Source: Haloarcula salinisoli (lineage in GTDB: Archaea; Halobacteriota; Halobacteria; Halobacteriales; Haloarculaceae). From it: a DNA stretch of 64,000 nt. The DNA is taken from NCBI RefSeq assembly GCF_019599405.1, contig NZ_RKLQ01000005.1, forward strand, positions 124,001-188,000, read 5' to 3'. Position numbers and translations under genes: made by a program. The notes below the pieces were generated by a model that was not told the origin of the DNA, ran no database searches, and saw nothing but the letters and a program-made list of their open reading frames with translations. Positions 14,658-40,444 of this stretch are shown piece by piece; within the stretch, counting starts at the first letter, position 1, and each line of letters begins with the position of its first letter.

Positions 14658-14685
14658 TCCCCGCACCTACCAGGGGAGCAAAAAA
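14658..14685 (-). promoter_or_regulatory. Hairpin leader of the methyltransferase gene
   Basis: Read leftward: T-run, arm TCCCC, loop TGGTAGGTGC, arm GGGGA, then 33 bases to ATG 14625. The sequence between hairpin and ATG closely matches that before the ArdC-like gene at 37828. Confidence 0.65.
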
Positions 14686-16200: not shown

Positions 16201-16242
16201 TTAACCAACGTGTAGACTGTTTCGGCCTCAGCTGTTGGTTAA
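16201..16242. promoter_or_regulatory. Paired TTAACCAAC inverted boxes
   Basis: TTAACCAAC at 16201-16209 and its inverse at 16234-16242. It lies 36 bases upstream of the gene starting at 16165. It is followed by about 90 bases similar to the 3' end of the 17885-18832 gene, including a short remnant PVSTSLVEQTVRD that matches PVSSLIEPVIRD. Confidence 0.65.
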
Positions 16243-24001: not shown

Positions 24002-24913
24002 CTACTCGTTAACGTGGTCTTGGAGTCGTTGATACCACATCCGCAGCGTTGGCGGGACCACCTCCGCGGCCTCTGCAACAGTCGTCTGAGCCCATTCTTG
24101 GCCAGTCTCTTCACCGGCGAGATAGACACATCCCGCCGCGATTCCCCGCCGACTCCCGGTGAACCCCTGCTCGTCGTCAACCAGCTGTGCCAACTCCCGA
24201 GCCCGTCGACCTGTCGCGTCGGTAGCCGGCACGGGCATCGCTTCCAAGACCCTCGGCACCCGCTCACTCGGGCGCTCAATGGGAATCGGGAGTTCGAGGT
24301 CACGTTGAAACACTTTGTATACCGTCCAGATGTGGGACTCCGAACACCGTGCCACTTCGGCGAGCCGGTGCATCTCGATGGCGTTGTTGCACCGACAGGC
24401 GATATAGACCGCCGCTGCAGCGCCGCCCTCTATCGATCGTCCGATCAGAAGGTCCGCATCTTGGGCGGTCTTGAACAGCGAGCACGCCTGGGTGCGAATC
24501 GTATCTGACAGCTCAAGCGCGCTGGTGACCCGCCGAATCTCGCCCAGTCCGTGCGAAAGGTTTCGCTGGCGCTTGGACTCGAACCGCGACCGACGGTGGA
24601 GAGTCCGCTGACGGCTGAGCCGGCGCTTTTTCCGCGCCGTCAGGACCGTCCCGTTCGCATCCGAATGGGCACGACCAATCTCCGTCGAGAGCCCCTTATC
24701 GTGCCGGGTTACCGTCCGAGGAGCGCCAGTCCGGCGACACTCGTCCTCGTCAAATGAACGCCATTCCGGACCGTGGTCGATCTGCTGTTCCTCGACCACA
24801 AGCCCGCAGTCGGAACAGTGCGTCTCTCCGCCGACTCGATCAAGATGACCACCACACTCGGGACACGTTGATGGAGTGCTGGACTTACCTGTCGGTGCAG
24901 ATTGCGATGACAT
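24002..24913 (-). CDS. tfb: Transcription initiation factor TFB paralogue
   Basis: 303 residues. The N-terminal zinc ribbon is CPECGGHLDRVGGETHCSDCG. The B-reader-like linker includes RSFDEDECRRTGAPRT. Two cyclin folds follow; the first has IGRSIEGGAAAAVYIACR and the second TGSRRGIAAGCVYLAGE. TFB recruits RNA polymerase to promoters bound by TBP. Haloarchaea carry several TFBs with different promoter choice, and plasmid copies are common. The linker between ribbon and core is basic and shorter than in chromosomal TFBs. Its own gene has a hairpin leader, so it might drive the genes that share that leader; this is only inference. The start is ATG 24913. Confidence 0.9.
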   Translation of the reverse strand: MSSQSAPTGKSSTPSTCPECGGHLDRVGGETHCSDCGLVVEEQQIDHGPEWRSFDEDECRRTGAPRTVTRHDKGLSTEIGRAHSDANGTVLTARKKRRLSRQRTLHRRSRFESKRQRNLSHGLGEIRRVTSALELSDTIRTQACSLFKTAQDADLLIGRSIEGGAAAAVYIACRCNNAIEMHRLAEVARCSESHIWTVYKVFQRDLELPIPIERPSERVPRVLEAMPVPATDATGRRARELAQLVDDEQGFTGSRRGIAAGCVYLAGEETGQEWAQTTVAEAAEVVPPTLRMWYQRLQDHVNE

Positions 24914-24922
24914 GTGTTTCTC

Positions 24923-24946
24923 CTCCACCCGCAAGGGAGTCAGAAA
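24923..24946 (-). promoter_or_regulatory. Hairpin leader upstream of tfb
   Basis: Leftward: TTTTTCTGA, arm CTCC, loop CTTGCGGGT, arm GGAG; 10 bases before the ATG, so the ribosome site GGAGGAG lies in the 3' arm. Shorter stem than most. Confidence 0.55.
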
Positions 24947-24964: not shown

Positions 24965-25636
24965 TCAGTTGGCGTCTGGAAGCCGTCCATCGGGCCGCGG
25001 AACCAAACCGTCCCGAATCTCAATATCGACCCGACGCAGGTGCTTACACCGCTCTGCAATGTCCGGACAGCTGCACGATTCGGCCAGCACGTCAGCCTCG
25101 TAGACACTGCCGGACGCCGAGTGTACCTCATAGCGGCCGGGTTTCTCGAGGAAGGATATGTCCATGTCCTCGCGTTTGGCCCGCTTGGTCCGGTCCTCGT
25201 CGTCGCTGTGGACTGCGAAGGGGTCGTCTTCAGGGTCAGTTAACTCTCCGTCGTCGAATCGTGCCTGAGCGACTCCGCCGTCAGTCGCGGAAAAGCGAAC
25301 CTCACTGTCGACGTGTTCACCGAAGCCATCATCCAATTTTCTTCGTTTGACCCAGCCGGGAATCGGACGCTCGCCGGTGACAAACGCTACCCGCCGCCGA
25401 TGCTTGCAGGTCACCTCGCGGTGCTCATCGTCCGGACACTCACAGGTTTCTTCCAGAGTGTCGACGAGATAGGTCGCTCCAGAACTCGACACGACCAGAT
25501 ACAGGTCGGGCGCACCGCGAGCCAGCCCGATATCGTCAAGGACGCTCATTACCTCCATCAGGGCGGCCTCGGTTCGGTCGGGAAGGTCACTAATCTCGGG
25601 CCTGTCGGTCGTCGCTGAAGGGTTCTGTGTCGCCAT
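24965..25636 (-). CDS. Protein with two SWIM-type zinc fingers
   Basis: 223 residues from ATG 25636. Two CxC..CxH modules: CECPDDEHREVTCKH at about residue 65 and CSCPDIAERCKH near 195. These are SWIM zinc fingers, which bind DNA or proteins. An acidic linker with DPEDDPFAVHSDDED separates them. Plasmid and virus genomes of haloarchaea often carry such proteins. Led by a hairpin leader. Confidence 0.8.
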   Translation of the reverse strand: MATQNPSATTDRPEISDLPDRTEAALMEVMSVLDDIGLARGAPDLYLVVSSSGATYLVDTLEETCECPDDEHREVTCKHRRRVAFVTGERPIPGWVKRRKLDDGFGEHVDSEVRFSATDGGVAQARFDDGELTDPEDDPFAVHSDDEDRTKRAKREDMDISFLEKPGRYEVHSASGSVYEADVLAESCSCPDIAERCKHLRRVDIEIRDGLVPRPDGRLPDAN

Positions 25637-25667
25637 GTCTGTAGGGGCGAGACGCACTCACCGGTAC

Positions 25668-28301: not shown

Positions 28302-28832
28302 TCAAGCCCAGATATCAAGACCAGCCTGTTCGCTTTCAGTTGGAGTGCCGCTGGTCGTCTCGACACGTTCCGTATCGAACGGTGGCTTGGCCAACCGAAC
28401 AGCCTCGTCGTTGTACGACCACTTCGTCCGTTTCACGCAGCCGATGGCAAGAACAGGACTGCACTCGACACAGGTACTCACGGAACCCTCAAACCCGACA
28501 ATCTCTACTGACCAAGCGATGATACTCTGGATTCGGTGAGTATCTTCTTCTGGCCGGCGAGTACTGGACGACCGGCAGCCAACAGCCCCACAGCAGTCGC
28601 ACGTCACCAGATACTCGCGGTCTGCTTCGTGGAAGAGGGGCGCCGCTTGCTCCATGTTGTCTCGGTTGGCGAAGGCGCACTCGCCACAGATTGCGAAGTG
28701 GTACACACCTTCCTCACGGTCGACATCAGCAGGCCACCGGAGGTACGTTCGTGTCCGCCCGAGGTACTCCCAGTTTCGGGTCCCACAGAACCGGCAGTAC
28801 TCGGCCTCAGCATCTTGTGATACATCGCTCAT
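28302..28832 (-). CDS. Multi-zinc-ribbon protein
   Basis: 176 residues from ATG 28832 (MSDVSQDAEAEYCRFCGTR). Several Cys pairs: CRFCG, CGEC, CDCCG and CVEC, so at least two zinc sites. Its ATG overlaps the stop of the upstream GNAT/Mom-like gene (ATGA), making a two-gene unit. A role in nucleic-acid handling with its partner is possible but not shown. Confidence 0.75.
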   Translation of the reverse strand: MSDVSQDAEAEYCRFCGTRNWEYLGRTRTYLRWPADVDREEGVYHFAICGECAFANRDNMEQAAPLFHEADREYLVTCDCCGAVGCRSSSTRRPEEDTHRIQSIIAWSVEIVGFEGSVSTCVECSPVLAIGCVKRTKWSYNDEAVRLAKPPFDTERVETTSGTPTESEQAGLDIWA

Positions 28833-29590
28833 TGCGACCATCGGTCCAGCGTCGACTGTTCGCGAATGTTTTCGACGGGACAGAGGAACCGCCACTTGTA
28901 CCGCTCGCGGATTGGTTTGTCCTCGCGATTGCTCGCCTGCCCTGGCTCGCGATACCCGGTACAGGTCCACCCTTTGTCCCGCAACGCCCGCACCATCGCG
29001 CCGTCGAAATCCGCCCGCACCCACGTTAGGAGGAAGCGAACGTCCTCGTCGGCATGGTCACGAACGAATCGCTCCTGGGCCCGCGCGAGTGCCGCTGATG
29101 CGAGGTTCGGCATCCGAACACCGATGCAAATCCGAGCGGCCTCGACGATGGTGTCGCCGGCGACCACCTCACTGTCGACGACGGGCTCGTCCGTCGACAG
29201 GAGGATCCGCCGGGCCGTCGGTCGAAGACGCTTCGGGAGCGGGTCGATATCCAGCGGCTCTGGATGGAGCTGGCCGGCGACGCCGTACCGAATCCGCTTG
29301 CGCGAGATGAGCGGGTAGCGCCAGGTGATAGCGCCGACCAGTGCCCCCTGGAAGTACACGCCGTGATGGGCGATGTTCACCGACGGCAGCGAGTCCATGT
29401 AGGAGTGGTGCGCCTCGTACACGGCTGACGCTGTCTCGCGGGAGATTGGGTCGACATCGACGTGGTCAGCGAACCGGATGCCGAACGGCGCCGTGAACGG
29501 TTGCCCATGATCGTGAATCGGACATGAACACGACGGCGTTGGTTGGTGCTGGAACGACTCTGGTTCGGAGTGGGAAGCAGACTGAGCCAT
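28829..29590 (-). CDS. GNAT-fold protein resembling Mom-type DNA modification enzymes
   Basis: 253 residues. The layout resembles phage Mu Mom and related GNAT proteins: AVYEAHHSYMDSLP near residue 60, VNIAHHGVYFQGALVGAITW strand pair, VEAARICIGVRMPNLASAAL where the acetyl-CoA site would be, and a C-terminal FLLTWVRADFDGAMVRALRDKGW. Mom converts adenine in phage DNA to a modified form that resists restriction. The match is by pattern only; it may instead be another acetyltransferase. It has a hairpin leader and a single TTAACCAAC box upstream, and is coupled to a zinc-ribbon gene. Confidence 0.5.
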   Translation of the reverse strand: MAQSASHSEPESFQHQPTPSCSCPIHDHGQPFTAPFGIRFADHVDVDPISRETASAVYEAHHSYMDSLPSVNIAHHGVYFQGALVGAITWRYPLISRKRIRYGVAGQLHPEPLDIDPLPKRLRPTARRILLSTDEPVVDSEVVAGDTIVEAARICIGVRMPNLASAALARAQERFVRDHADEDVRFLLTWVRADFDGAMVRALRDKGWTCTGYREPGQASNREDKPIRERYKWRFLCPVENIREQSTLDRWSQ

Positions 29591-29617
29591 CCTCTCGCCC
29601 GCCAGAGGAGCACAAAA
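29590..29617 (-). promoter_or_regulatory. Hairpin leader at start codon of 29590
   Basis: Leftward: TTTTGTGC, arm TCCTCT, loop GGCGGGCG, arm AGAGGA ending in the first base of the ATG. A box AACCAACACT on the forward strand at 29631-29640 lies directly upstream. Confidence 0.75.
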
Positions 29618-29946
29618 TCCGGAGTGTTAACCAACACTAGAGCCTGTTGCCACTCTTGAATTCCCGCGCGTCAACCCAGTCCGATAGTCCCCACTCATCA
29701 CTCATCCATAGGCAGATCTGGTATAAAGAAATAGACTTACTTCCAAACAGGGGGAAAATTCTGTCCCGGGCAAATGCCCGAGTGTGAAGATCCACACACC
29801 TGATTTCTAGTGAAAACTGGAATATCTGTTCCAGCTTGTGTGACAAACACTCACTCACGAGGGGACGGGCCACACACCAGTGAGCGTGTCAAAAACGGGT
29901 TCATTGCTGTAGCGTTTGGACCTGCGGTGCTACCCCGACGGCCATG
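29591..29946. other. Intergenic region with single TTAACCAAC box
   Basis: Apart from the leader and one box, no convincing gene. A 78-codon leftward frame (29637-29873) has atypical composition and no leader, so I do not call it. Confidence 0.45.
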
Positions 29947-31005
29947 CTACTGTTCCGACAACGCGTACACATTGTTGTCAAAGCTCCCAACATAGACGGT
30001 GCCATCCACCACTGCTGGTGACGAACCCACTTGACCGCCCGTCCCGTAAGACCATTGGTCGGTGCCACCCTCGGCCGACAACGCGTACACACTGGTATCG
30101 TTGCTCCCAACATAGACAGTGCCATCAACCACCGCCGGTGACGAAGCTACCCAGTCACCCGTCTGGTAGGACCATTGCTCGGTGCCATCCTCGGCCACCA
30201 ACGCGTACACATAGCTGTCGTCGCTCCCAATGTAGACGGTGCCATCCACCACTGCCGGTGACGAACGTACTACTCTACCTGTCTCGAAGGACCATTGCTC
30301 GGTGCCATCCTCGGCCGACAACGCATACACATAGTGGTCGTCGCTCCCAACATAGACGGTGCCATCCACCACTGCCGGTGACGAAAACACCCATTCACCC
30401 GTCTCGAAGGACCATTGCTCGGTGCCATCCTCGGCCGACAACGCATACAAATAGTGGTCGTCGCTCCCAATGTAGATGGTGCCATCGACCACTGCCGGAA
30501 ACGATGACACTAATCCACCAGTCTCGAAGGACCACTGTTCGGTGCCATCCTCGGCCGACAACGCGTATACATTGTTGTCAAAGCTCCCAACATAGACAGT
30601 GCCATCGACCACTGTCGGTGACGACCGCACTTGATCACCCGTCTCGAAGGCCCATTGTTCGGTGCCATCCTCGGCCGACAACGCGTACACATTGGAGTCG
30701 AGGCTCCCGACGTAGACAGTACCATCACCCACTGCCGGGGACGAAGCTACTGCATCATCCGTCTCGAAGGCCCATTGTTCGGTACCGTCTTGGGCCGACA
30801 ACGCGTACACACTGTCGTCCCAACTCCCAACATAGACAGTGCCATCCACCACTGCCGGTGACGAACGCACTTCAGCGTCCGTCTCGAAGGCCCATTGTTC
30901 GCCAACGGGTCCTTCCGGCCCTTCAGATGAGCTACAGCCAGCAATCACACCCACACCAGCAGCCCCCACCACACGAAGCCACTCCCGACGAGTCCGATTT
31001 GACAT
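29947..31005 (-). CDS. Lipoprotein with PQQ-like beta-propeller repeats
   Basis: 352 residues. Tat lipoprotein signal with twin Arg at 6-7 and lipobox Cys24 (GVIAGC). Then about eight repeats of exactly 40 residues, each with SSPAVVDGTVYVGS, VYALSAEDGTEQW and a variable strand. This pattern builds an eight-bladed propeller related to PQQ/BamB-like proteins; the PQQ-binding residues are not evident. It is expected to be an extracellular binding or scaffold protein. The DNA repeats are so alike that recombination could change repeat number. A 5'-truncated relative is at 6730-7204. Confidence 0.85.
   Translation of the reverse strand: MSNRTRREWLRVVGAAGVGVIAGCSSSEGPEGPVGEQWAFETDAEVRSSPAVVDGTVYVGSWDDSVYALSAQDGTEQWAFETDDAVASSPAVGDGTVYVGSLDSNVYALSAEDGTEQWAFETGDQVRSSPTVVDGTVYVGSFDNNVYALSAEDGTEQWSFETGGLVSSFPAVVDGTIYIGSDDHYLYALSAEDGTEQWSFETGEWVFSSPAVVDGTVYVGSDDHYVYALSAEDGTEQWSFETGRVVRSSPAVVDGTVYIGSDDSYVYALVAEDGTEQWSYQTGDWVASSPAVVDGTVYVGSNDTSVYALSAEGGTDQWSYGTGGQVGSSPAVVDGTVYVGSFDNNVYALSEQ
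29970..30900. repeat. Tandem 120-bp coding repeats
   Basis: The phrase GTGCCATCCACCACTGCCG recurs at 120-base intervals (about 30000, 30120, 30240, 30360, 30480, 30600, 30720, 30840). The two units around 30290-30480 are almost identical over more than 100 bases. Confidence 0.85.
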
Positions 31006-31035
31006 ATTTGTACCATAAAGTGCTGATATATAAAC

Positions 31036-31656
31036 TCAATTGGTAACTGGTTTTTCAAGAAGCGCCCTGCCGCTGTCGCGAAGTGTCAGATTCTCGCGTT
31101 CATGAAACGGGAACCTGACGGTTGCTTTCGGCGGGAGTTCCCGGTACGTCCCTCGACCAGTCCGAACCGCTGTCGGCCTGCCGCTGAAGATATCCCGCTC
31201 GCGAAGCGCGTCGACGTAGTCACTCCCGGCGAGGACGACCAGTTCCCGACAAGGCGACTCGTCCTGGTCGGCGGCGTAGAGACGACGAAGCCAGCTGCCG
31301 AGCGCCGAGTGGACCCCCATCGCCCACCGGTCCAATTCCGTCTCGACTGGGTCACCCGAATGGAGTTCGTACGCTGGCTTGTCATTGATCGGCACGTCTC
31401 GAAGGTCGTCGATTGTTGTGTGGTAGGGGTCGACCTACAGCCGCGGCATGAGGACCGCGTGTTCCGCCGAGAGGATTCCCCATGTGTTCGGCCACCGATC
31501 GGCCGTCCCGGCCCATCGGACAGCAGCCTCGACGTACTGGCGTTTGACCGCAAAGTATGACGACGTATACAGTTCGCGGGCCTCCACTGTTTCCGAAGCT
31601 ATCGCTGCCCCACATCCAATGAGCACGAAACGGCCACGGGTTCGCTCACCGGGCAT
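31036..31656 (-). pseudogene. DUF6884-like protein interrupted by an in-frame TAG
   Basis: One frame runs from ATG 31656 (MPGERTRGRFVLIGCGAA) to 31036 but contains TAG at 31438-31436. Before it: VLIGCG, ELYTSSYFAVKRQYVEAA, WGILSAEHAVLMPRL; after it: VDPYHTTIDDL and the C-terminal domain. The order GCG, YTS, ILSAEH, PY is that of DUF6884. The codon falls in a variable position of the loop before PY, so the change could be CAG or AAG to TAG. Either a nonsense mutation or readthrough. DUF6884 proteins have been linked to 7-deazaguanine DNA modification, but I cannot verify this here. Confidence 0.65.
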
Positions 31657-31658
31657 TC

Positions 31659-31790
31659 TCACTGGCTATCCGGGTGCTCTCCCTCGAACACCTCACCGGA
31701 CTCCTGGGCCCGGCAATGCTCGGTGCCAATGTCGTCTATGTCGCTATCCGGCTCCTGCTCGTCCGTCGACTGCTGTTGGTCGGTACTCAT
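31659..31790 (-). CDS. Small acidic protein (43 aa)
   Basis: MSTDQQQSTDEQEPDSDIDD to GEHPDSQ, almost entirely acidic and polar. It has a leader-like hairpin upstream and its stop is three bases from the start of the DUF6884-like gene, so it heads that operon. Role unknown. Confidence 0.5.
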   Translation of the reverse strand: MSTDQQQSTDEQEPDSDIDDIGTEHCRAQESGEVFEGEHPDSQ

Positions 31791-31802
31791 TTGAAGAATC
31801 CT

Positions 31803-31825
31803 CACCCGACTGGGTGGCACAAAAT
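31803..31825 (-). promoter_or_regulatory. Variant hairpin leader upstream of 31790
   Basis: Leftward: TTTTGTG, CACCC, AGTC, GGGTG. The stem is shifted relative to other leaders and the loop motif CGGGTG is in the 3' arm, so this is a weaker member. Confidence 0.5.
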
Positions 31826-31832
31826 CTAACTG

Positions 31833-31871
31833 TTAACCAACAATTGCCGATTTTTGCCTCGTGTTGGTTAA
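31833..31871. promoter_or_regulatory. Paired TTAACCAACA inverted boxes
   Basis: TTAACCAACA at 31833-31842 and TGTTGGTTAA at 31862-31871, spacer 19. It lies between the DUF6610-like gene end and the hairpin leader of the next operon. Confidence 0.75.
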
Positions 31872-31879
31872 TACAAGTC

Positions 31880-32824
31880 TCACGGCCGCCGCTCACCAAT
31901 CGGTGTCAGTCCCTCGCGGTACTCGATTCGGTCCCGTTCGTATTCATCGCGATAGGCCAGCGTCTGGCCGTTCTCGTACTCAACGACGATAGCATCCTCC
32001 AGGTCTCGACCACCCGCATGGTGCCCGTCGGCGGCGAACACCCGGTCCATCGGTTCCGCTGTTAGCGGATTCCGGTCTTTCTCCCTCGACGGCCACACCC
32101 CGACCGACTGCCAATACCGCTTGATCTCCCGAAGACTCTCCCGGACCGTCTCCCGAATCGAGAACTCATCAGCCTCTCGATAGCCGTGTGGCGAGAAGTA
32201 CTGGCCTTTGAGCGCCGCGAGATGAATCCCGTTCCAGTCCACTCCGACGATGTCCGCCGGTTCCTCGCCGGTCACACGCGGTTGAGTGAGCTCATCGATC
32301 ACCTCGTACTGCTTCGGGGGACTCGCACCAAGCAGATGCACCCGACGACCCCGCCAATCGACGATGTTGGTGTACTCCCCAGCTGTCTTGTCCGAATACC
32401 CCATCGGGTAACCCAGTACAATATCCTTGTCGACGGCGTCGATTGCCTCCCGGCACTTCGGGACGATGATGAGCTCCGTGTCGGGGAACTTCGACTTGAG
32501 TTCCCGCGCGGCGCGGTTGTACTCGCGTGCTTCCTCGACATCGTAGGCATCGCCGAGGATTCCAATCGAGGGTGCATACCGCTCAAATCGCTCGATGTAC
32601 CGGTCCAAGTCGGGATTCCGAAAGTCGTTGTCCAGCATCTCAATTGGGACGTCGACGTTCCGCAGCGACGACTGGTAGGAGTAGTCCTCGCGAACACCGA
32701 CAGTGAATCCGAGCCGATACGCGTCGACGACGAACGGCTCACGATGGAGGAAACCGATCCACTCGGCTCGCTGTGCGTCGTCGATGGCCGTTGCTGACCA
32801 GGAGTAGATCGCCTCTGAAGACAT
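31880..32824 (-). CDS. DUF6610-like protein, possible tRNA-guanine-transglycosylase-fold enzyme
   Basis: 314 residues. Strings such as SIGILGDAYDVEEAREYN, ELIIVPKCREAIDA, GRRVHLLGASPPKQYEVI and VGVDWNGIHLAALKGQYF recur in a haloarchaeal family I know as DUF6610. The arrangement, alternating strands with a late conserved Asp, is compatible with a TIM barrel like tRNA-guanine transglycosylases, which in phages (DpdA) insert 7-deazaguanine into DNA. That link is inference. It lies next to the DUF6884-like gene. Start ATG 32824; leader upstream. Confidence 0.6.
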   Translation of the reverse strand: MSSEAIYSWSATAIDDAQRAEWIGFLHREPFVVDAYRLGFTVGVREDYSYQSSLRNVDVPIEMLDNDFRNPDLDRYIERFERYAPSIGILGDAYDVEEAREYNRAARELKSKFPDTELIIVPKCREAIDAVDKDIVLGYPMGYSDKTAGEYTNIVDWRGRRVHLLGASPPKQYEVIDELTQPRVTGEEPADIVGVDWNGIHLAALKGQYFSPHGYREADEFSIRETVRESLREIKRYWQSVGVWPSREKDRNPLTAEPMDRVFAADGHHAGGRDLEDAIVVEYENGQTLAYRDEYERDRIEYREGLTPIGERRP

Positions 32825-32845
32825 GGAACACCAAGCGCGCCCATC

Positions 32846-32876
32846 GGCGCGCTCAGCTGGCTAGCGCGCCACAAAA
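32846..32876 (-). promoter_or_regulatory. Hairpin leader upstream of 32824 (variant loop)
   Basis: Leftward: TTTTGTG, an 8-bp arm GGCGCGCT, loop AGCCAGCTG, arm AGCGCGCC; 22 bases before the ATG. Position and T-rich element agree with the others, but the CGGGTG loop is absent. Confidence 0.55.
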
Positions 32877-32924
32877 CCACCCCGTAGTTTAAATTGGGTT
32901 ACGTGACAATCAGCAAGTAAGAGG

Positions 32925-33716
32925 ATGGCCAAGCCCGGCGTTGACCCTCGCTTTACCGATCCACACAACTTCGACGGCTACTGGCCGCCAGATTGGGATG
33001 CCCGTCAGCAACTGGTCGTTAAACGCGACGACTGGACGTGCCAGAACTGCAATACCCGCAACCCAGACAACCTCTGTACGATTCCTGAGCAACCAATTGA
33101 CCACGGTGGAAGCTTCGAGCTTTGGAACCTCATCACGCTGTGTGAGGACTGCAAATTCGAATTCCAACAATCGAACGAGGCAGGCCAAGGGACAGCCCAG
33201 TCGTCGAATACGTCTGGACCAGAGAGAGGCTCCACAGACGGCCTCGATCAGCCAGCGGCACCAGGCACTAATTCCACAGACCAGCAGGAAACAGATGCCT
33301 CTGCAGTGACCGTGGAAACTGATCCAGAATCGGAACCCAATGAGACGGTCTCTGGACTCAAACGAGCAGTCGTCGCTTTCGGCGGTGGCACAGCCCTGGC
33401 CGGGACATATATCGGTGCGTTAGTCATCGCCTCCATCGCCCCAGACTGGATGTTCTCGCTATTCTTCCTTGGCCTGCCATTCGCCGGGCTGGCCACCGGG
33501 TCCAGGTGGCCACTCTCGACTGTTGTCGCTCTCGGCCATGTGGCTCTGTTTTATGTCGCCATCGCGCCGTTTGCCCCGCCGAGCATGACGGTCACCAACC
33601 TCCGCCTCTGGATACCGTTTGTAGTGCCTCTGGTCGGAATCGCGTACGGACTCGCTGCAGACCACTATGACCTGTCGCTACGTGACCGGCTCCGACGGCC
33701 TCAGATTCTCGATTGA
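32925..33716 (+). CDS. HNH-like zinc domain fused to membrane domain
   Basis: 263 residues. N-terminal HNH-like module: VVKRDDWTCQNCNTRNPDN, then PIDHGGSFELWNLITLCEDC, with the Cys pairs and Asp-His present. A disordered acidic linker (about 85-145) leads to four membrane helices, starting VVAFGGGTALAGTYIGALV. Membrane-tethered HNH proteins may act as nucleases against incoming DNA, but this is unproven. Divergent from the DUF6610-like gene. Confidence 0.75.
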   Translation: MAKPGVDPRFTDPHNFDGYWPPDWDARQQLVVKRDDWTCQNCNTRNPDNLCTIPEQPIDHGGSFELWNLITLCEDCKFEFQQSNEAGQGTAQSSNTSGPERGSTDGLDQPAAPGTNSTDQQETDASAVTVETDPESEPNETVSGLKRAVVAFGGGTALAGTYIGALVIASIAPDWMFSLFFLGLPFAGLATGSRWPLSTVVALGHVALFYVAIAPFAPPSMTVTNLRLWIPFVVPLVGIAYGLAADHYDLSLRDRLRRPQILD

Positions 33717-36874: not shown

Positions 36875-37828
36875 CTATTCGACGGCGTCGATGACTTCCG
36901 CTGCTGTCTTGGAAATCCGGTCTAGTCGGTCCCGTACTGTCTCCGGTGCATCCCCGTCCCACGCTGCGAGATAGAACGCCGCGTTGTCCGCGTCCAGCCC
37001 GAAGTGCCGACTGACGATGTAGGCAACCGCCTCGGCTTCGACCTCTCGACGTGACCGCTCTTTTTCGTCGTCACAGTCGAAATGCAACAGCGCGTGGGCA
37101 AATTCGTGGATGAGCGTGCTCGCGAGGTCAGCCCGATTTTCACGGTCAACTACCTCCACGACTGGCTTGGTCGTCGTGGGGCTCCGTCGCTCGCACACCC
37201 CGCTGGCTGATCCGTGAGTCCACTCCCCCGGTGGAACGATTCTCGCGTCGACGCCGATGACGTCAGTCACCTCGAGCAGCGCTTCGACCAGTCCATCCGT
37301 CTGCCCGTATGCCTCGGTCTCCAGCTCGGGAAGGGGCTCGCCCTCAGTCTGGGAGATGTCGAACACCGACGTTGGCCGGAATCCGACCAAGCCTCGCGAC
37401 CACTCCTCGGGCTCCGTCTCGTCGAACTCACAGTCAGTGCGCTCGTGGTACGAGGGAGAGTTCCCACACTCCGGGCATTTGTCGGTGATGATAGGCGCCC
37501 AGATCCAGATGGCCTCCTCACCCGCCTGGACCTGCCGGTCGAACTCGTCTTTCCAGGTGTTGTACCCAGCGACCTTCGTCGCCTCGGGACACTGTAGTTT
37601 GATCAGCAGCGTGTTCCGGGCCGAGTAGTCGTGGAACTTGCTCTGGACGTCCAGCCATTGCTGGAACTGCTTGCTGGCCTGGGCCTCGTCGGTTAGCTTG
37701 GCGAGGTCTTCGACCCACGCCTCCAGCTGCTCGCGCATCTCATCGGCCCGTGTGTCTGAATCGTCGAACGAGTGGGTGGTCGTCGTACTGTGCTCCTGGT
37801 CGGGAGTCTCGGAGTTCATCGTCGACAT
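36875..37828 (-). CDS. ArdC-like anti-restriction protein with metallopeptidase domain
   Basis: 317 residues from ATG 37828. N-terminal ArdC-N-like domain at about 20-150 (FHDYSARNTLLIKLQCPEAT, VAGYNTWKDEF) binds single-stranded DNA in known members. A small zinc motif (CPECG) follows. The C-terminal IrrE/ImmA-type metallopeptidase has LIHEFAHALLHF with HExxH. ArdC of conjugative plasmids protects entering DNA from restriction. This and the origin nearby support a mobile plasmid backbone. The sequence upstream of the ATG nearly repeats that of the broken methyltransferase. Confidence 0.85.
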   Translation of the reverse strand: MSTMNSETPDQEHSTTTTHSFDDSDTRADEMREQLEAWVEDLAKLTDEAQASKQFQQWLDVQSKFHDYSARNTLLIKLQCPEATKVAGYNTWKDEFDRQVQAGEEAIWIWAPIITDKCPECGNSPSYHERTDCEFDETEPEEWSRGLVGFRPTSVFDISQTEGEPLPELETEAYGQTDGLVEALLEVTDVIGVDARIVPPGEWTHGSASGVCERRSPTTTKPVVEVVDRENRADLASTLIHEFAHALLHFDCDDEKERSRREVEAEAVAYIVSRHFGLDADNAAFYLAAWDGDAPETVRDRLDRISKTAAEVIDAVE

Positions 37829-37859
37829 GAGTCTGTGTCGGGACGCACTCTCGGGCACG

Positions 37860-37888
37860 CCCCCGCACCCGCCAAGGGGGACAGAAAA
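37860..37888 (-). promoter_or_regulatory. Hairpin leader upstream of the ArdC-like gene
   Basis: Leftward: TTTTCTGT, arm CCCCC, loop TTGGCGGGTGC, arm GGGGG; 32 bases before the ATG, followed by a block shared with the 14625 gene leader. Confidence 0.75.
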
Positions 37889-37893
37889 GTATC

Positions 37894-37935
37894 TTAACCA
37901 ACAGAGTGAAGATTCCGGCACCGAATGTTGGTTAA
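37894..37935. promoter_or_regulatory. Paired TTAACCAACA inverted boxes between divergent genes
   Basis: TTAACCAACA at 37894-37903 and TGTTGGTTAA at 37926-37935, spacer 22. The right box ends five bases before the ATG of the rightward gene at 37941, and the left box adjoins the hairpin leader of the leftward gene, so one element could control both. Confidence 0.8.
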
Positions 37936-37940
37936 CATCT

Positions 37941-38255
37941 ATGCCAGAGGAACCCACACAACCAGCGACTCTCCCATCGGGCATTGTCGATGAGTGTTCG
38001 GCCCTATCAGTGGACCAACTTCAAGAACTCGCCAAGTATGCCGAGTCGCTGGCTGAGTATCGAGAACGGGAGAAACGACTCGAAGGTGAGGACGAGTCAT
38101 CAGACGAGGCACCGGATGACAGACCCGATGAGGTACCAACTGGGGCGTCGGTCACGGTCAAGGAAATCAACGACAATCGCTATCGCTACTGGCAGTGGCG
38201 TGATGGGGACAAAATCAAATCGAAGTACATCGGTCCAGCCAATCCAGACGAGTGA
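37941..38255 (+). CDS. Small conserved plasmid protein
   Basis: 104 residues from ATG 37941. A helix (VDQLQELAKYAESLAEYR), a disordered acidic middle, and a C-terminal ITVKEI-like motif (VTVKEINDNRYRYWQWRDGD, KIKSKYIGP) that recurs in small haloarchaeal plasmid proteins. The motif is probably a beta hairpin. Function unknown. The start lies right behind an operator-like box. Confidence 0.7.
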   Translation: MPEEPTQPATLPSGIVDECSALSVDQLQELAKYAESLAEYREREKRLEGEDESSDEAPDDRPDEVPTGASVTVKEINDNRYRYWQWRDGDKIKSKYIGPANPDE

Positions 38256-40366: not shown

Positions 40367-40403
40367 CGGTGGTGGAACTGGTGGTTAAAGCGACTTACAA
40401 TAT

Positions 40404-40444
40404 TAACCAACACTTCCCGATATCCATACTCTGTGTTGGTTAAT
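40404..40444. promoter_or_regulatory. Paired TTAACCAACA inverted boxes at the origin
   Basis: TTAACCAACA at 40404-40413 and TGTTGGTTAA at 40435-40444, spacer 21. It lies just outside the right origin repeats and downstream of the leftward gene at 40496. Confidence 0.8.

Follow-up and report, generated by a model that had tools for sequence, protein, structure and literature searches.

The DNA of HVTV-1, a virus of the Druskaviridae, holds the 7-deazaguanines dPreQ1, dADG and dG+, and dPreQ1 makes up ~30% of its Gs (PMC8306585). No DpdA was recognized there, and Hutinet et al. proposed a DpdA supplied by the host or an undetected 2'-deoxyribosyltransferase (PMC6884629). In one study, DpdC is assigned to DUF328/YaaA and credited with the hydrolysis of dPreQ0 to dADG (PMC12839542). 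The sister family DUF6884, which is related to YaaA and has CxxxK and LSAxxG motifs (PMC11701544), is, according to another study, the dpdC domain (PMC11888242). Here we analyse a locus that encodes DUF6610, DUF6884-like and Mom-like proteins, all matched on the minus strand within positions 28302–32824 of a 64,000-nucleotide stretch (the window) of Haloarcula salinisoli contig NZ_RKLQ01000005.1. The closest relatives of this contig are Haloarcula plasmids. We read the genes as the remnant and core of a haloarchaeal plasmid module for DNA hypermodification and anti-restriction, in which DUF6610 would be a DpdA-type base exchanger, and put the probability of this reading at roughly 0.7. The main features are as follows.

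31880–32824, minus strand: intact DUF6610 protein of 314 amino acids (Pfam PF20314, E 3.1e-63), a predicted transglycosylase resembling DpdA and tRNA-guanine transglycosylases (TGTs)
31036–31662, minus strand: DUF6884 pseudogene, DpdC-like (PF21818, E 1.5e-9, on a fragment)
31435–31437, minus strand: in-frame TAG of the DUF6884 pseudogene, Thr in intact relatives
28829–29590, minus strand: intact Mom-like GNAT of 253 amino acids (sub-threshold match to PF25680, PHROG 1384 match, fold model)

The strongest evidence that DUF6610 is a DpdA-type enzyme comes from viruses. We found the family by tblastn in the Druskaviridae HVTV-1, HVTV-2, HCTV-1, HCTV-5 and HCTV-16. In the three virus genomes searched with profiles (HVTV-1, HCTV-1 and HCTV-5), the proteins match PF20314 over their full length and above the cut-off (E 3e-58 to 8e-63), and no match to the TGT family PF01702 appears even at E 10. 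The HVTV-1 gene, which encodes gp69, immediately follows folE, with queE, queD, queC and queF close by, and the HCTV-1 and HCTV-16 genes adjoin the same folE/que cluster; phage dpdA likewise lies beside folE in 9g and CAjan. The HCTV-16 record names the que genes yet labels the DUF6610 gene 'hypothetical protein'. Because the gene sits in a viral preQ0 operon, no canonical TGT or DpdA gene accompanies it and HVTV-1 DNA carries 7-deazaguanines, DUF6610 is probably the missing DpdA-type base exchanger of HVTV-1-type viruses.

The protein in the window scores 213.5 bits against PF20314 (cut-off, 27), confirming a DUF6610 gene where one had been predicted from the sequence. An AlphaFold2 model built from 73 sequences (pLDDT 82.9, pTM 0.83) is a TIM barrel. 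When the best 1000 chains from Foldseek were re-aligned with VIA-align, the top 50 rows included 46 TGTs (Z 12.8–13.2, 213–222 residues), in line with the transglycosylase fold that had been guessed for this protein; the archaeosine TGT 1iq8 is 19% identical in this alignment. The best structural match in BFVD is the HCTV-1 member of the family, and annotated phage and archaeal-virus queuine tRNA-ribosyltransferases occur further down. A sequence search of solved structures, with the single protein or its profile, gave no meaningful match, and an NCBIfam search gave none.

Residues that are invariant in DUF6610 occur in the motif order of phage DpdA/DpdA2 (D, D, P, G, H..G, D; PMC6884629) and TGTs: D65xD67, GD92, P122, G138, H163LLG and D196. 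The DUF6610 motif VHLLGASPP is similar to VHLFGAGHP in the ArcTGT of the host, and the D, GD, P, G, H..G and D motifs of the two are collinear. If the motifs do correspond, D196 would be the candidate nucleophile, with the HLLG motif (H163–G166), D65, D67 and D92 as further active-site candidates. However, DUF6610 lacks significant sequence similarity to phage DpdA/DpdA2 and is annotated only as DUF6610 or hypothetical. The plasmid genes also differ from the phage genes in having no preQ0 genes of their own in the regions read, so that they would rely on preQ0 from the host. DUF6610 is present in about one third of the haloarchaeal genomes sampled. A second copy in the same genome (G000:C4:105446-106441; L002, L107) is 54% identical and lies in other surroundings, which include TnpB-like genes.

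The TGT fold of the model would also suit an ArcTGT paralogue that acts on tRNA, altering archaeosine and thereby tuning translation for plasmids and viruses, with the proximity of Mom and ArdC being mere backbone linkage. The hosts already use preQ0 for tRNA, and the Cys-rich C-terminal region present in many DUF6610 members may be like the zinc site of TGTs. Such a role nevertheless fits poorly with a viral homologue that lies in the operon of viruses with 7-deazaguanine in their DNA, not only in tRNA, with the anti-restriction protein ArdC as the constant neighbour of DUF6610, and with the action of Mom-like GNATs of this kind on DNA; we regard it as quite unlikely.

We surveyed 293 genomes from the order in three passes and read 40 fetched regions. 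Many haloarchaeal plasmids share the gene order ArdC, DUF6610, DUF6884, Mom, as expected if the three genes form a set, as the original prediction proposed. Backbone A, in Haloarcula and some neighbours, reads TFB, SWIM, small open reading frames (ORFs), Cys-rich, Mom, cargo, DUF6884, DUF6610, HNH, k15, ArdC, with all genes but HNH on one strand. Backbone B, in other genera, reads SWIM, ArdC, k21, DUF6610, c26393, k13, k20, Mom, DUF6166. A third arrangement (L123, L125, L144 and L145) has DUF6610 and DUF6884 without Mom. DUF6884 sits between Mom and DUF6610 in ~10 loci. Across 78 plasmid loci gathered via DUF6610, an ArdC-like gene lies nearby in 70, a Mom-like gene in 10 and DUF6884 in 9; DUF6610 and ArdC therefore make up the core, to which the Mom-like and DUF6884 genes are accessory.

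These counts also suit a reading in which DUF6610 and ArdC serve replication or establishment and the Mom-like and DUF6884 genes are unrelated cargo, each a selfish or defence gene in its own right, with nothing but regulation in common. Mom and DUF6884 are missing from most DUF6610 loci, cargo genes are inserted among the three, unrelated genes also carry the leaders and boxes described below, and the sole PADLOC match is a candidate-defence model, for DUF6884. However, DUF6884 adjoins DUF6610 in two backbones (L093–L108; L123, L125, L144 and L145), and each of the three families, taken on its own, indicates base modification. DUF6610 is also strongly enriched in genomes with a Mom-like gene (30 of 36, versus 66 of the 257 without; Fisher 3e-11, shared descent ignored), including outside the genus (17 of 23, versus 66 of 253; 7e-6, shared descent again ignored). 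Independent cargo is thus unlikely.

The DUF6884 copy in the window is a pseudogene. The TAG at 31435–31437 replaces a Thr (MPRQTVAPYDT in relatives, MPRL*VDPYHT here), both motifs are broken (Ile in place of Lys in CxxxK, Ala in place of Gly in LSAxxG) and the C-terminal ~80 amino acids are gone. The original prediction of a DUF6884-like protein therefore holds for the family and fails for a functional product. A reading of TAG as a sense codon was rejected in view of the Thr in relatives, together with the degraded motifs and missing C terminus of the same copy, and further by the close Haloarcula marina plasmid, which has no annotated DUF6884 between DUF6610 and Mom. Intact genes occupy the same position in L093–L101, L103, L104, L106, L108 and Haloarcula pelagica, and these relatives match Pfam at E 1.6e-18 with the motifs CGDAK and LSAEHG. 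Haloarcula argentinensis likewise has the set in intact form. Between DUF6884 and Mom there often lies cluster k8 (L093:10019-11199 and relatives), which comprises paired related proteins of 226 and 154 amino acids.

The link between DUF6884 and 7-deazaguanine named in the original prediction is in print, through dpdC. DUF6884 also adjoins TGT paralogues elsewhere in haloarchaea (G055 C1 2727897–2730126, G003 C1 2653517–2655138 and G068 C7 182909–184473). In the first of these, likely a Dpd-type island, two DUF6884 genes lie immediately ahead of the TGT paralogue. The plasmid loci are like bacterial Dpd islands (dpdA–dpdC with dpdD–K) in that a transglycosylase-like protein adjoins a DUF6884/YaaA-type protein. 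They differ in having a Mom-like GNAT and ArdC where those islands have the restriction operon, and DpdB was not seen; no targeted search for dpdD–K was made.

A plasmid location beside anti-restriction ArdC argues against the idea that the genes supply the modification side of a restriction system like Dpd, which would mark self DNA for a cognate nuclease and not shield a mobile element. The resemblance of the DUF6884 and TGT-like pair to dpdA–dpdC is in favour of that idea, as is the adjacent HNH-type gene (32925–33716), but backbone B lacks this gene, its product ends in a membrane-like C terminus, and no PADLOC model recognized DUF6610 or Mom. We consider a restriction system of this type very unlikely.

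The Mom-like protein was predicted to be a GNAT related to Mom, and its modelled fold agrees: phage Mu Mom (8bv8) is the best Foldseek match (E 2.8e-7; next GNAT, 7.8e-5), and VIA-align, too, places it at the top (Z 13.6 over 162 residues). The protein matches PHROG 1384 'Mom-like' at E 1.4e-4; a search of solved structures with its sequence profile gave no meaningful match. S165, invariant in the haloarchaeal Mom-like proteins, aligns with the Ser mutated in inactive Mu Mom (S124A in 8bv8; residue 114 of the 231-amino-acid Mu record), and H62, Y64, R153 and N162 are likewise common to both, so that the His/Tyr, Arg, Asn and inactivation-sensitive Ser of Mu Mom are conserved. Unlike Mu Mom, to which it is ~24% identical in a loose alignment, the protein has an extra CxCPIH N terminus, is encoded on an archaeal plasmid without Com and is linked to a transglycosylase-like protein. 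The DUF6610 and Mom-like proteins are 75–82% identical to their relatives over the full length. Mom-like proteins that are 41–43% identical occur on two IMG/VR viral contigs of 53–58 kb (L218 and L219).

Several results count against a modification module built around a DpdA-type DUF6610. Class II aldolases rank first for the DUF6610 model in Foldseek itself (E 1e-4), and the remaining 4 of the 50 top VIA-align rows are PdxJ, equal to the TGTs in Z with fewer aligned residues; because of this lead and this tie, the fold alone establishes only a TIM barrel. The profile comparison with DpdA, proposed as a check of the original prediction, came out negative: hhalign of all DUF6610 members, the core only or the viral members only against DpdA and haloarchaeal ArcTGT gave probabilities <1%, none significant. 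The DUF6610 protein has no PF01702 match either, and because both kinds of similarity are missing we describe it as working like DpdA and TGTs and do not file it as a member. The Mom-like protein matches PF25680 below the cut-off (E 3.4e-4; 20.8 bits, cut-off 27.1), and its model, built from 11 sequences, is of low confidence (pLDDT 63.5). As most DUF6610 loci lack Mom and DUF6884, the three genes are not an obligate set, and the genome counts are not phylogenetically independent. Taken as a whole, the analysis supports the interpretation of the genes as a DNA-modification set, with the modification chemistry itself being predicted.

For the substrate, the chemistry and the protection afforded by the module, we infer the following. 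The host genome encodes QueC and ArcTGT and would make preQ0 for tRNA archaeosine, a supply on which the plasmid module may draw. DUF6610 would take guanine out of DNA and put in preQ0 or a derivative, as the Druskaviridae would do with the same family and their own preQ0 operon. Where intact, DUF6884 would act next, in the manner of DpdC, and convert the nitrile on the inserted base into an amide by hydration. The Mom-like GNAT would acylate a base, either adenine at N6 as in phage Mu or possibly the deazaguanine side group. Since DUF6884 is lost in the window, only base exchange and acylation would remain there. Together with ArdC, these modifications may make plasmid DNA resist host restriction on entry or during transfer between cells.

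BREX-related capture (BRC) systems, in which a GNAT and a TGT are proposed to modify DNA jointly (PMC12839542), resemble this scheme by description only, and no HerA/FtsK, PglZ or STAND genes were seen here. In the ArdC-bearing leading regions of conjugative plasmids, ArdC is similarly clustered with other anti-restriction genes; here, base-modifying enzymes are added.

Genes around the three comprise conserved backbone members and one variable cargo gene.

36875–37984, minus strand: ArdC-like anti-restriction protein, conserved neighbour of DUF6610 (PF08401, E 7e-6)
32925–33716, plus strand: HNH-type protein, divergent from DUF6610 (PHROG HNH, 1.8e-6)
29947–31005, minus strand: gene for a PQQ-repeat lipoprotein, variable cargo that separates Mom from DUF6884
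28302–28832, minus strand: Cys-rich, zinc-ribbon-like protein whose gene overlaps the stop codon of Mom
24965–25657, minus strand: SWIM zinc-finger protein, backbone neighbour (PF04434; 24 loci)
24002–24934, minus strand: TFB (TFIIB-type) general transcription factor, backbone neighbour (PF00382, E 3.8e-21)

The PQQ-repeat lipoprotein gene interrupts the gene set in the window; relatives have other cargo or none at this place. The HNH-type gene is kept in backbone A (12 loci), as is the Cys-rich protein, a conserved partner of Mom (13 loci) that matches no Pfam family above the cut-off. This protein was considered as a Com-like activator of Mom translation and set aside, because the resemblance is by analogy only and the gene order is reversed. 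In many relatives, TFB lies beside the SWIM zinc-finger protein on the plasmid backbone.

Short repeated elements precede many of these genes.

29627–29636, plus strand: single TTAACCAACA box ahead of the Mom-like gene
31833–31871, unstranded: inverted pair TTAACCAACA-N19-TGTTGGTTAA ahead of the remnant ORF upstream of DUF6884
37894–37935, unstranded: inverted pair TTAACCAACA-N22-TGTTGGTTAA upstream of ArdC
29588–29620, minus strand: hairpin leader TTTTGTGCTCCTCTGGCGGGCGAGAGG-ATG of the Mom-like gene
31789–31826, minus strand: hairpin leader of the remnant ORF upstream of the DUF6884 pseudogene
32825–32880, minus strand: TTTTGTG and a long GC-rich hairpin before DUF6610 (-29.9 kcal/mol, z -2.6)

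The TTAACCAACA box has 15 matches in the window at ≤1 mismatch (1.8 expected), mostly as inverted pairs 19–22 bp apart. Further pairs of the form TTAACCAACA-N19-22-TGTTGGTTAA lie at 16201–16242 and 40403–40443. Of 41 regions, 32 contain inverted pairs, mostly with a spacing of 21–22 bp (~three helical turns between centres). They are present in both plasmid backbones, where they precede DUF6610 (backbone B), k13, SWIM and other genes. The recurring pairs are operator-like and point to a common regulator.

The hairpin leader, TTTTNTG-(CCTC..GAGG)-ATG, recurs as a primary-sequence motif ahead of many backbone A genes. It consists of TTTTNTG, a short GC hairpin with the loop GGGTG, and GAGG just ahead of the start codon, and it precedes unrelated genes in the plasmid family. 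Minus-strand copies between 14685 and 37890 include those at 14685, 15923, 22416, 23987, 25695, 27490, 27946, 29617, 31824 and 37888, among others. The original prediction gave all three genes a shared leader and shared boxes. Both are found at Mom (a single box) and at the remnant ORF upstream of DUF6884 (a pair), whereas DUF6610 in the window has a hairpin of a different, GC-rich type and no box. The leaders were rejected as strongly structured RNA, as most single leaders fold no better than shuffles, and an Rfam scan of the window gave no match. The plasmid-encoded TFB might read the TTTTNTG leaders as promoters.

The component families are already of known kinds; what is new is the assignment of DUF6610 and the plasmid combination. 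Neither DUF6610 as a DNA base exchanger nor a combination of DUF6610, Mom-like, DUF6884 and ArdC genes on archaeal plasmids was found in the literature searched, which did not cover 10.1093/nar/gkad657. We tentatively suggest, at somewhat less than even odds, that the DUF6610 proteins are DNA 7-deazaguanine transglycosylases of a new, strongly diverged family, and that this family provides the missing DpdA of the Druskaviridae. Plasmids would, on the same tentative footing, add DpdC-like and Mom-like enzymes to yield doubly modified DNA, in which a 7-deazaguanine would be joined by an acylated base (perhaps acylated deazaguanine itself); this would be the first plasmid modification of this sort.

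The family offers a concrete candidate for the enzyme that places 7-deazaguanine in the DNA of HVTV-1-type viruses, a question open since 2019, and predicts hypermodified bases on ordinary haloarchaeal plasmids. If this is true, DUF6610 gains a function, and archaeal plasmids join phages and bacterial islands as carriers of DNA modification with 7-deazaguanine and of the Mom type.

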